The position numbers and the translations under genes were made by a program. The notes under the pieces were generated by a model that had not been told where the DNA came from, searched no databases, and worked only from the letters and a program-made list of their open reading frames with translations. A DNA stretch of 64,000 nucleotides from Burkholderia sp. BCC0506 (GTDB lineage: Bacteria; Pseudomonadota; Gammaproteobacteria; Burkholderiales; Burkholderiaceae): positions 62,001 through 126,000 of the forward strand of contig NZ_CADFEN010000011.1 in NCBI RefSeq assembly GCF_902833145.1. The letters run 5' to 3'. This document shows, piece by piece, positions 35,790 to 52,529 of this stretch; position 1 is the first letter of the stretch; every line of letters starts with the position of its first letter.

Positions 35790-36881
35790 ATGAAGATTGC
35801 AGTGCTGCCCGGCGACGGCATCGGTCCGGAAATCGTCAATGAAGCCGTGAAGGTGCTGAACGCACTCGACGAGAAGTTCGAACTCGAACAGGCGCCGGTC
35901 GGCGGCGCGGGCTACGAGGCGAGCGGCCATCCGCTGCCCGACGCGACGCTGAAGCTCGCGAAGGAAGCCGACGCGATCCTGTTCGGCGCGGTCGGCGACT
36001 GGAAGTACGATTCGCTCGAGCGTGCGCTGCGCCCCGAGCAGGCGATCCTCGGGCTGCGCAAGCACCTCGAATTGTTCGCGAACTTCCGCCCGGCGATCTG
36101 CTATCCGCAGCTCGTCGACGCATCGCCGTTGAAGCCGGAACTGGTCGCGGGCCTCGACATCCTGATCGTGCGGGAACTGAACGGCGACATCTACTTCGGC
36201 CAGCCGCGCGGCGTGCGGGCGGCGCCGGACGGCCCGTTCGCCGGCGAGCGCGAAGGCTTCGACACGATGCGCTACTCGGAGCCGGAAGTGCGCCGCATCG
36301 CGCACGTCGCGTTCCAGGCCGCGCAAAAGCGCGCGAAGAAGCTGCTGTCGGTCGACAAGTCGAACGTGCTGGAGACGTCGCAGTTCTGGCGCGACATCAT
36401 GATCGACGTGTCGAAGGAGTACGCGGACGTCGAGCTGTCGCACATGTACGTCGACAACGCGGCGATGCAGCTCGCGAAGGCGCCGAAGCAGTTCGACGTA
36501 ATCGTCACCGGCAACATGTTCGGCGACATCCTGTCGGATGAAGCGTCGATGCTGACGGGCTCGATCGGCATGCTGCCGTCGGCGTCGCTCGACAAGAACA
36601 ACAAGGGCCTGTACGAGCCGTCGCACGGTTCGGCGCCCGACATCGCGGGCAAGGGCATCGCGAACCCGCTCGCGACGATCCTGTCGGCCGCGATGCTGCT
36701 GCGCTATTCGCTGAATCGCGCGGAGCAGGCCGATCGCATCGAGCGTGCGGTAAAAACGGTGCTCGAACAAGGCTATCGCACGGGCGACATCGCGACGCCG
36801 GGCTGCAAGCAGGTCGGCACGGCCGCGATGGGCGACGCGGTGGTCGCCGCGCTGTCAGCGCAGGGCGACGAAGTGCGGTAA
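35790..36881 (+). CDS. leuB: 3-isopropylmalate dehydrogenase
   Basis: NAD-dependent oxidative decarboxylation of 3-isopropylmalate to 2-oxoisocaproate, third step of the leucine branch. The 363-residue protein starts at 35790 ([16 protein letters not shown]) after AGGAA. It has the substrate-binding Arg residues in [25 protein letters not shown], the Mg2+-binding Asp in [24 protein letters not shown] and [18 protein letters not shown]. It is last in the leu cluster and is followed by a 13/14-bp hairpin and a distinct asd leader region. Confidence 0.97.
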
Positions 36882-36896
36882 TTAATGTGGAAAAGG

Positions 36897-36931
36897 GCGC
36901 GAACGGGCCGTAAAAATCGGCCGGTTCGCGC
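36897..36931 (+). terminator. Hairpin after leuB
   Basis: GCGCGAACGGGCCG pairs with CGGCCGGTTCGCGC with a single mismatch around the 7-nt loop TAAAAAT, 15 bp past the leuB stop. No T tract follows, so it may be a 3'-end stabilising hairpin or a weak terminator separating leu from asd. Confidence 0.5.
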
Positions 36932-36942
36932 GCGGTTGGCCG

Positions 36943-36971
36943 TTGTGCGGGCCACCGGCTTTGTGTAGACT
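36943..36971 (+). promoter_or_regulatory. Candidate promoter for the asd leader
   Basis: TTGTGC (36943-36948), a 17-bp spacer and TAGACT (36966-36971). Six bases after the -10 comes the leader-peptide ATG at 36978, so transcription could begin at or next to the start codon, giving a leaderless peptide mRNA. The gap holds no Shine-Dalgarno, consistent with that reading. Confidence 0.45.
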
Positions 36972-36977
36972 CGAACG

Positions 36978-37097
36978 ATGGCGCTGATTTCCCTGATCTC
37001 CCCGGTCCTGAAACTCCACGGCAACACTGCCCGTGCGGGTGCGCGCGCCATCGTCATCACGAAAACCATTACCACGAAAACGATCATTAAACGCTGA
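36978..37097 (+). CDS. Ile/Thr/Lys-rich leader peptide upstream of asd
   Basis: A 39-residue frame ending 85 bp before asd. The N-terminal part is ordinary ([20 protein letters not shown]), but residues 25-39 ([15 protein letters not shown]) contain five Ile, five Thr and three Lys. These are all products of the aspartate pathway that Asd feeds. The codons (ATT, ACC, ACG, AAA) stand out from the surrounding GC-rich usage. The composition and position are those of an attenuation leader like ThrL of enteric bacteria. No ribosome-binding site is visible; a leaderless start is possible. A long hairpin follows the stop. I know of no described asd leader of this kind, so function is inferred. Confidence 0.65.
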
Positions 37098-37108
37098 TCG
37101 CCGTCGTG

Positions 37109-37153
37109 CCCGCCTGTTTCCCCGCGCGGTCACGCGGGGACGGAAATGGCGGG
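37109..37153 (+). promoter_or_regulatory. Extended stem-loop between the leader peptide and asd
   Basis: TCCCCGCG (37119-37126) pairs with CGCGGGGA (37133-37140). The stem is extended outward, with a small bulge, by TT/AA pairs and by CCCGCC (37109-37114) with GGCGGG (37148-37153). There is no T tract, so it is not a classical terminator; it could gate asd translation, since it ends 30 bp before the ATG. Confidence 0.45.
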
Positions 37154-37182
37154 GAAGCTCCATTCAAAGCAAAGGGTTAGTC

Positions 37183-38304
37183 ATGAACGTAGGTCTCGTA
37201 GGTTGGCGCGGCATGGTCGGCAGCGTCCTGATGCAGCGCATGCAGGAAGAGGGCGATTTCGACCTGATCGAACCGGTGTTTTTCAGCACCAGCAATACGG
37301 GCGGCAAGGCGCCGTCGTTCGCGAAAAACGAGACTACGCTCAAGGACGCGACCAACGTCGACGAGCTGAAGAAGTGCGACGTGATCATCACGTGCCAGGG
37401 CGGCGACTACACGAACGACGTGTTCCCGAAGCTGCGCGCGGCCGGCTGGAACGGCTACTGGATCGACGCGGCATCGTCGCTGCGGATGAAGGACGACGCG
37501 GTCATCATCCTCGATCCGGTCAACCTCGACGTGATCAAGGACGCGCTCGTCAAGGGCACGAAGAACTTCATCGGCGGCAACTGCACGGTCAGCCTGATGC
37601 TGATGGCGCTCGGCGGCCTGTTCCGCGAGAACCTCGTCGACTGGATCACCGCGATGACCTACCAGGCCGCATCGGGCGCGGGCGCGCAGAACATGCGCGA
37701 GCTGCTGTCGCAGATGGGCACGCTGAACGGCGCGGTGCAGGAACAGCTCGCCGATCCGGCTTCCGCGATCCTCGACATCGACCGCCGCGTGCTGGCCGCG
37801 ATGAACAGCGACGCGATGCCGACGAGCCACTTCGGCGTGCCGCTCGCCGGTTCGCTGATTCCGTGGATCGACAAGGATCTCGGCAACGGGATGTCGAAGG
37901 AAGAGTGGAAGGGCGGCGCGGAAACCAACAAGATCCTCGGCAAGCCGGCGATGGGCGAGCCGGGCTCGATCCCGGTCGACGGGCTGTGCGTGCGGATCGG
38001 CGCGATGCGCTGCCACTCGCAGGCGCTGACGATCAAGCTGAAGAAGGACGTGCCGCTCGACGAGATCAACGGCATCCTCGCGTCGGCGAACGACTGGGTG
38101 AAGGTCGTGCCGAACGAGCGTGAAGCGTCGATGCGCGACCTGTCGCCGGCGAAGATCACCGGCACGCTGTCGGTGCCGGTCGGCCGCCTGCGCAAGCTCG
38201 CGATGGGCGGCGAATACCTGTCGGCGTTCACGGTCGGCGATCAGCTGCTGTGGGGCGCGGCCGAGCCGCTGCGCCGCATGCTGCGCATCCTGCTCGACAA
38301 GTAA
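37183..38304 (+). CDS. asd: Aspartate-semialdehyde dehydrogenase
   Basis: Reduces aspartyl phosphate to aspartate semialdehyde, the branch point to lysine/diaminopimelate, threonine and methionine. The 373-residue protein starts at 37183 after AAAGGG. It has the NADP-binding [14 protein letters not shown] motif at residues 6-19, the nucleophile Cys in [17 protein letters not shown] (about 135), [14 protein letters not shown], and the catalytic His in [14 protein letters not shown]. It is of the long Gram-negative type. It is preceded by the Ile/Thr/Lys-rich leader and followed by a strong terminator, so it is likely its own unit. Confidence 0.97.
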
Positions 38305-52341: not shown

Positions 52342-52384
52342 CGCCAGCGCACGCTTCGATCGAGGCGTGATAGGATGTGGCCTT

Positions 52385-52445
52385 GCGTCGATTTGATATC
52401 AGCTTGCGGACGCGGGGCAACTTCCCAAAACAGCTAAAGCGAAGG
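52385..52445 (+). ncRNA. SAM-II-like riboswitch aptamer upstream of metZ
   Basis: GCGTC (52385-52389) pairs with GACGC (52109-shifted partner at 52409... i.e. bases 52409-52413). The 19-nt loop between them reads GATTTGATATCAGCTTGCG, matching the GAUUU...UUGC pattern of SAM-II aptamers. Downstream comes GCTAAA (52433-52438) with a purine-rich AAGG, the other conserved SAM-II element needed for the pseudoknot. Unlike short SAM-II examples, a small hairpin GGG/CCC (52115-type loop, bases 52415-52426) is inserted before it. The next gene makes homocysteine for methionine/SAM, as expected for SAM control. Recognised by eye from remembered consensus; covariance scoring would settle it. Confidence 0.6.
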
Positions 52446-52489
52446 CCGGCGGCAGCCGGCCCGAGTCGATCGCTGTCGTACCGCACCGA

Positions 52490-52529
52490 AGCCCGCTGAT
52501 GCCGACGCATAGCGGGCTTTTTGTTTTTT
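52490..52529 (+). terminator. Intrinsic terminator before metZ
   Basis: AGCCCGCT (52490-52497) pairs with AGCGGGCT (52511-52518), extended inside by ATGC/GCAT, and is followed by a T-rich run to 52529. It lies 44 bp after the SAM-II-like element and 72 bp before metZ, so it may be the riboswitch expression platform, the purF terminator, or both. Confidence 0.88.

Follow-up and report, generated by a model that had tools for sequence, protein, structure and literature searches.

An Ile/Thr/Lys-rich, probably leaderless reading frame and two near-invariant hairpins precede asd in Burkholderiaceae: a likely amino-acid-responsive leader peptide

In the window (the whole stretch of DNA analysed, 64,000 nucleotides) asd is the last of a row of genes whose other members we take, from their translations, to be leuC, leuD and leuB. 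The stop codon of leuB lies at 36881 and asd starts at 37183; between them are a promoter-like sequence, a frame of 39 codons and an 85-nt gap with hairpins. From the reaction catalysed by Asd the pathway branches to Lys, Thr, Met, Ile and diaminopimelate. The features of the locus are as follows.

36897..36931, + strand: inverted repeat, rich in GC, around a 7-nt A/T loop and without a U tract, just 3' of leuB (direct reading).
36943..36971, + strand: putative promoter, with a weak -35 TTGTGC, a 17-nt spacer and an extended -10, TGTGTAGACT (direct reading; spacing in relatives).
36978..37097, + strand: leader peptide frame of 39 codons and TGA, predicted leaderless (frame list and relatives).
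37017..37035, + strand: HP1, a small hairpin inside the leader frame, CACGG/CCGTG (5-bp stem in relatives).
37044..37127, + strand: stretch with an excess of C over G (C/G 2.0) from the control codons to strand b, a candidate Rho loading region.
37050..37094, + strand: control run formed by codons 25-39, most of them for Ile, Thr or Lys (codon content, window scan, relatives).
37081..37100, + strand: HP2, a pairing of CGATCA in the last control codons with TGATCG in the stop region.
37107..37112, + strand: strand a (TGCCCG), alternative partner of strand c or d (alignment; predicted pairing).
37118..37156, + strand: HP3, formed by strand b, TTCCCCGC, at 37118-37125 and strand d, GCGGGGAA, at 37149-37156.
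37171..37176, + strand: asd Shine-Dalgarno sequence (read directly from the sequence).
37183..38304, + strand: asd, aspartate-semialdehyde dehydrogenase (matches in 294 of 299 genomes of the family; product name from annotated plasmid-collection records).

The inverted repeat behind leuB, which by eye is also visible in the leuB-asd gap of several relatives, may separate leuB from the promoter of the asd leader. At the other end of the gap, the asd frame is open for 50 codons 5' of its ATG (37033-37182), from a GTG inside the leader; the open Asd frames of relatives are commonly of 400-430 aa, others of 374. This upstream opening is probably a GC effect; an extended Asd is possible. The nearest named plasmid-collection record to the leader stretch is from Burkholderia arboris, 99.5% identical to it across 99% of 401 nt. 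A plasmid record inspected for its annotation, which has only 4 features, shows no annotated gene around the leader.

The earlier note on this DNA had described a 39-codon ATG frame with five Ile, five Thr and three Lys among residues 25-39, stopping 85 nt ahead of the asd ATG (37183), and its counts, coordinates and spacing are correct. So is its remark that the codons are AT-richer than the surroundings: all Lys codons of the leader are AAA, which provides just 7 of the 94 Lys codons in six coding sequences of the window (AAA:AAG 7:87), and ATT provides 5 of their 111 Ile codons (ATT:ATC 5:106). The run exceeds chance. Among the 602 frames of at least 20 codons in the window, on both strands, the leader alone has eight or more Ile, Thr or Lys in its last 15 codons, and its 13 are the maximum among the 1246 open 15-codon stretches that precede a stop. 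The fraction of Ile, Thr and Lys is 0.80 in the leader frame, as against 0.14 and 0.05 in the other two frames. Leaders of the ThrL type are likewise small frames 5' of the regulated gene in which codons for the end products of the pathway crowd together ahead of the stop. Elsewhere in the same genome, further runs of Ile, Thr, Lys, Asn and Met codons were picked up by a pattern search.

The -35 hexamer, TTGTGC, has three of the six consensus letters, and the -10 hexamer, TAGACT, is followed after 6 nt by the leader ATG. The promoter proposed in the earlier note at 36943-36971 is thus readable directly, though a promoter scan with a stricter consensus listed none. Its spacing recurs in relatives. 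In the first set of these, defined below, a TGTA-type -10 lies 6-8 nt from the leader ATG in 76 of 79, and in 150 of 157 distinct relatives an extended -10 (TGTAGACT in 78, TGTATATT in 65, others in 7) is followed 6-9 nt on by an in-frame ATG. Because the -10 lies this close to the ATG, too near for any Shine-Dalgarno sequence, the leader mRNA is probably leaderless, as had been suggested, with transcription predicted to start at or beside 36978. Among the seven sequences that lack the standard spacing, L017 and L130 have intact leaders with variant -10 elements, L076 has a displaced leader ATG and L200 a leader cut by the end of the locus.

Relatives were drawn from the best-matching places listed for asd in the 294 family genomes that have a homologue. 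A first set of 80 upstream regions came from the more similar end of the matches (40 from within the genus and 40 from outside it) and so favours close relatives; the leader is present in 78, being missing from L080 (genus g16) and L081 (g15). A second set of 40 regions, picked to cover genera absent from the first, has it in 12 and lacks it in 28, making 90 of 120 regions for both sets together. The 12 belong to g3 (4 of 4), g5 (1 of 1), g24 (4 of 4) and g8 (3 of 6, with HP3 changed in L095). In the sampled genera without the leader there is mostly an open frame of more than 85 codons ending 15-120 nt 5' of asd, the exceptions being gaps of 148 nt in L090 and 207 nt in L122. In one region, L121 of g19, an AT-rich frame has Ile, Thr or Lys at 10 of 15 codons; it was left out of the leader count because the other leader features are missing.

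A third source was a scan of a sequence collection with a DNA pattern taken from the hairpin region only, not from the frame, which yielded at least 119 stretches. All 80 of those examined lie 5' of asd, and all 79 that can be read (L182 is cut) have 8-14 Ile, Thr or Lys in the last 15 codons; in L197 the start, read by eye, is GTG. The genera named among the matches listed are Burkholderia, Paraburkholderia, Caballeronia, Trinickia, Cupriavidus and Ralstonia, with one family-level name. Genus g24 would be Ralstonia and g3 Cupriavidus, since their leaders equal or closely resemble those of named records of these genera. Two contigs of the Ralstonia assembly TCR112 (L164 and L192) each carry a leader and asd, and genome G158 (4% contamination) gives two covariance-model matches; both doubles are possibly due to mixed assemblies.

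Together the window, 53 regions of the first set, 11 of the second and 92 from the scan make up 157 distinct 3' regions, a set from which regions without the hairpin motif are excluded by construction. Leader length varies from 36 to 59 aa, and the stop is TGA in 118, TAG in 29 and TAA in 3 (n=150). In three of the 157, L213, L237 and L240, a frame shift or internal stop disrupts the leader and the hairpin region is still there; these therefore contradict conservation of the frame. Loss of the frame or of its run in close relatives, which the earlier note had named as a finding that would speak against its reading, was not seen in the same genus, where all 40 genomes sampled besides that of the window have both intact; other genera keep them too, with differing stop codons and lengths.

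What is kept in the run is its content. Ile, Thr and Lys are all present in the last 15 codons of each of 146 distinct leaders. In these 2190 codons ATH outnumbers ATG by 574:2 and ACN outnumbers AGN by 698:16. Lys looks required in its own right, not as a by-product of A-rich RNA, because AAR:AAY is 393:4 in the run and 164:73 upstream in the same leaders. Codon usage in the run is AAA 368 to AAG 25 and ATT 309 to ATC 265. Over codons -12 to -2 of 122 distinct stretches, position 1 is A at a frequency of 0.79-0.98, except at codon -7 (0.57), and its entropy is 0.12-0.61, except at -8 (0.95) and -7 (1.08); in the same codons position 2 has an entropy of 0.60-1.38 and position 3 one of 0.91-1.93. 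To judge from the alignment, Ile, Thr and Lys thus interchange with one another as the A at position 1 stays, so that content is conserved. A nearly fixed position 1 with a freer position 2, which chooses between Ile, Thr and Lys, is the pattern predicted for a sensor of content.

The earlier note had also suggested looking for a bias to synonymous substitution, and at short range no such bias is seen: within the genus pN/pS is 1.11 (23 distinct 39-codon leaders from 39 sequences), with 13, 13 and 9 variable columns at codon positions 1, 2 and 3. In the control, the first 33 codons of asd, pN is 0 in 12 distinct sequences. Purifying selection at the amino-acid level was thus not seen among the 23 leaders of the genus. 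Their nucleotide divergence is low (5%), and the leader is therefore constrained as RNA too.

An HP1-like 5-bp stem is found in 102 of the 146 distinct leaders, as against 24 expected from codon shuffling, and compensated forms of its core occur in 94, chiefly CACGG/CCGTG (72), CGCGG/CCGCG (14) and TGCGG/CCGCA (6); 20 of 22 Cupriavidus-type leaders have no such stem, and the Ralstonia-type leaders have either just an unrelated one (4 of 5) or none. HP2 is paired in 900 of 911 cells across the 157 distinct sequences, the length of its loop and the stop codon enclosed in it varying between genera; a change on both sides of the stem is seen in one sequence only, L103, from C-G to U-A. HP3, paired in 1244 of 1248 cells, is almost invariant in the same 157. 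It faces a competing inner stem at 37120-37139 and has no T tract 3' of it. By comparison of these sequences, the invariance of strands b and d is greater than base pairing alone would need. Covariation of HP2 and HP3, assessed on 22 diverse sequences, gave a score not above that of shuffles; because variation is too small and the score lies within shuffles, it is conservation and not covariation that is the evidence for these two hairpins. Covariation was accordingly set aside as proof, the cross-genus cases being few (L103, L095).

The second of these cases comes from a reduced genome of g8: in L095 the sequence of HP3 is wholly rewritten and a 9-bp stem is kept at the same place, folding with a z of -2.6 for 137 nt and -2.05 for the HP3 part. 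In three other reduced g8 genomes (L092, L093 and L125) the leader and hairpins have decayed or been replaced. All four genomes are of about 1.1-1.2 Mb, and L093 has an A/T-rich hairpin and a T tract where the leader hairpins would be. For the window itself, the long imperfect hairpin placed at 37109-37153 by the earlier note does appear in the minimum-energy fold; the leader as a whole is not unusually stable, with a z of -1.0 and 27 of 200 shuffles at least as stable (L086, z -1.2). Stability likewise offers no argument for the hairpins.

We folded 156 sequences with the RNA masked to represent three states (ribosome free, stalled, or at the stop codon); these are crude folds. HP3, the pairing of b with d, reaches 0.73 in the stalled state and 0.43-0.49 with the ribosome at the stop, varying by group; in Burkholderia, pairings of a with d and of b with c replace HP3 when the ribosome is at the stop. 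The folds suggest a partial switch between hairpins. The asd start codon has a mean openness of 0.46 when the ribosome is stalled and 0.37 when it is at the stop: in 20 Burkholderia sequences openness falls from 0.49 to 0.21-0.24, and in other groups the change is small (0.40 to 0.32-0.36; 0.58 to 0.50-0.51). The mean openness of the Shine-Dalgarno sequence is 0.50 free, 0.56 stalled and 0.53-0.55 at the stop. Sequestration of the Shine-Dalgarno sequence is unsupported by these values, which stay within 0.50-0.56 in all ribosome states; a translational readout is retained as an alternative because the openness of the asd start codon is somewhat lower once the ribosome has reached the stop.

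The absence of a T tract after the hairpin, already remarked on in the earlier note, holds in the window and throughout the 156 sequences, where the 10 nt after HP3 contain a mean of 3.1 T and a maximum of 6. A terminator scan found no U-tract terminator in this region of the window, and on these two grounds we regard an intrinsic terminator as disfavoured. The C-over-G stretch is at the 99.6th percentile for C/G and the 98.9th for C minus G among 78-nt windows of the 64 kb, and the best C/G window in the 156 sequences has a median of 2.21 and a minimum of 1.63. RNA rich in C and poor in G near the leader stop is a feature of Rho-dependent leader attenuators of the tnaC and speF kind. The stretch would fit Rho loading, and may in part merely follow from the A-initial codons of the run, which lower G.

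In the genomes searched, the element was found in this family only. A covariance model of the 3' part of the leader, built on 22 sequences most of which come from genomes also searched, matches once in the genome of the window and in 193 of the 299 family genomes, in 9 of 25 genera. In the order it matches 6 of 399 genomes, all of this family, with none among 386 others, and in the class 1 of 274, the genome of the window itself; these large searches used stricter filters by which weak matches are lost, and the genomes overlap between searches. Of the 399 order-level genomes, 4 have a match to an exact pattern. Additional copies of the element and targets besides asd are set aside: the genome of the window has no second match, and the 80 loci examined of the at least 119 found by the scan all precede asd. 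Nor is this a known RNA family by Rfam, in which no family matches the leader, either in the whole window at gathering scores or in the leader region at E up to 10; neither the asd RNA motif (RF01732) nor the lysine riboswitch gave a covariance-model match in either. Rfam does match the - strand of the window at 52349-52522, to the Burkholderia sRNA Bp2_287 (RF02424, 205 bits).

We consider it likely, by a good margin, that the frame encodes a leader peptide which responds to amino-acid supply and regulates asd in cis. The comparison shows the frame, its codon content, retention of a stop, promoter spacing, conservation of the hairpins, a single copy in the genome of the window and linkage to asd. 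Ribosomes would load directly on the 5' end of a transcript predicted to start at or beside the leader ATG, and would then read a run of codons for Thr, Ile and Lys, each of them an end product of the pathway beyond Asd. Shortage of any of the three would stall the ribosome in the run; with all three plentiful it would reach the stop codon and leave. Which of HP2 and the rival pairings among strands a, b, c and d form would depend on its position, as would access to the C-rich stretch around the stop codon. The position of the ribosome on the run is likely to be the signal, because codon content and frame are kept. The codon content of the relatives sustains the earlier note's proposal of control by Ile/Thr/Lys codons, in which the stall and any effect on asd are inferred.

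How ribosome position would be read out is less clear. Rho-dependent termination after complete translation of the leader, relieved by stalling, seems the most likely readout because no U tract follows HP3, at something short of an even chance. The masked folds, with HP3 at 0.73 in the stalled state, fit poorly with HP3 as the hairpin that forms when amino acids are plentiful. Next comes translational attenuation, in which ribosome position would change the folding of the RNA and thereby cover or free the asd start region: HP3 ends about 20-30 nt 5' of the asd ATG, a terminator is lacking, and the predicted openness of the start codon drops from stalled to stop, most of all in Burkholderia; the near-constant openness of the Shine-Dalgarno sequence, the small change at the start codon outside Burkholderia and, by eye, the want of a conserved strand complementary to the Shine-Dalgarno sequence nevertheless make it rather unlikely. 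Classical intrinsic attenuation as in thrL, with HP3 as terminator and the pairing of strand a as antiterminator, draws on a layout (control codons, then competing strands, then a GC-rich hairpin) that is like that of a classical attenuator, but the T counts after HP3 and the lack of a terminator-like site in this region of the window leave it very unlikely.

Two further explanations give the codon run a lesser part. The hairpins might bind a factor or ligand, with the frame and its run contributing little or only secondarily; conservation of strands b and d goes beyond the needs of pairing and, within the genus, constraint on the leader is on nucleotides rather than amino acids, yet this would leave aside the codon-content signature and the replacement of one stop codon by another across genera, and with no Rfam match besides we think it improbable. 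That the peptide acts in trans as a small protein, its conservation reflecting that role, is scarcely credible: such a role is known for peTrpL (the available part of PMC7298713) and the N-terminal half is partly conserved within Burkholderia-like genera, but the N-terminus differs in Ralstonia-type, Cupriavidus-type and g8 leaders, HP1 explains part of it, and residues interchange freely. The complete scheme, a leaderless Thr/Ile/Lys leader through which shortage of any one of the three would induce asd by way of Rho termination that is steered by the two ultra-conserved hairpins, perhaps together with a factor bound to b and d, we put forward tentatively, as possible but on the doubtful side.

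If it is true, signals from three amino acids are combined at a single step by one short RNA, with neither a Shine-Dalgarno sequence nor an intrinsic terminator, in an arrangement common to Burkholderia, Paraburkholderia, Caballeronia, Trinickia, Cupriavidus and Ralstonia. The asd leader would then be a ready test case for attenuation via leaderless leaders in GC-rich genomes.

ThrL is the leader peptide of the thr operon of gamma-proteobacteria. The asd leader resembles it in being a short frame rich in Thr and Ile codons 5' of aspartate-family genes and in its presumed sensing through stalled ribosomes; compared by description only, it stands apart in its target gene, asd, in Lys codons that are never missing, in a probably leaderless mRNA and in the want of an intrinsic terminator. 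Attenuators in proteobacteria were reportedly surveyed in 2004. Literature searches, partial in coverage, found no asd leader peptide in Burkholderiaceae, and, with the same partial coverage, no leader with Lys control codons on a branch-point enzyme. A broad attenuator survey exists (PMC2965389, available in part). The partly available study of start sites in B. cenocepacia reports leaderless transcripts, its main text containing neither 'asd' nor 'leader peptide' (PMC4603805); 82 transcripts with short 5' UTRs are reported in the available part of PMC5688073, and 'asd' is absent from its main text, as from what is available of PMC5719362 and PMC7563307.

Closer in design is the Salmonella orf34-speF leader, for which the available part of PMC6386406 reports that no intrinsic terminator was found and that a C/U-rich candidate Rho site lies near the stop. 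To that extent the two share a leader frame with regulatory codons, the lack of a terminator, a candidate Rho region and alternative hairpins after the stop. By the same partial source, orf34 differs in sensing Arg with two codons and in having its own Shine-Dalgarno sequence; it ends, as we calculate from the positions given there, about 380 nt 5' of speF, compared with 85 nt here. Complete translation of orf34 prevents Rho termination (PMC6386406, in the part available), whereas in our model of the asd leader it is stalling that would prevent it.

Also named for asd is RF01732, the asd RNA motif found in Lactobacillales and a candidate structured RNA (PMC2864571, available in part); it is from another phylum, and does not match here. 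Candidate leader peptides of the Mycobacterium cys operon, as given in the available part of PMC1262725, share a codon run near the stop, the absence of a terminator and the suggestion of Rho, which is made by the authors themselves. In that account they have a single amino acid, Cys, and belong to another phylum, and they have no conserved hairpin capable of termination, where the asd leader has two that are near-invariant.
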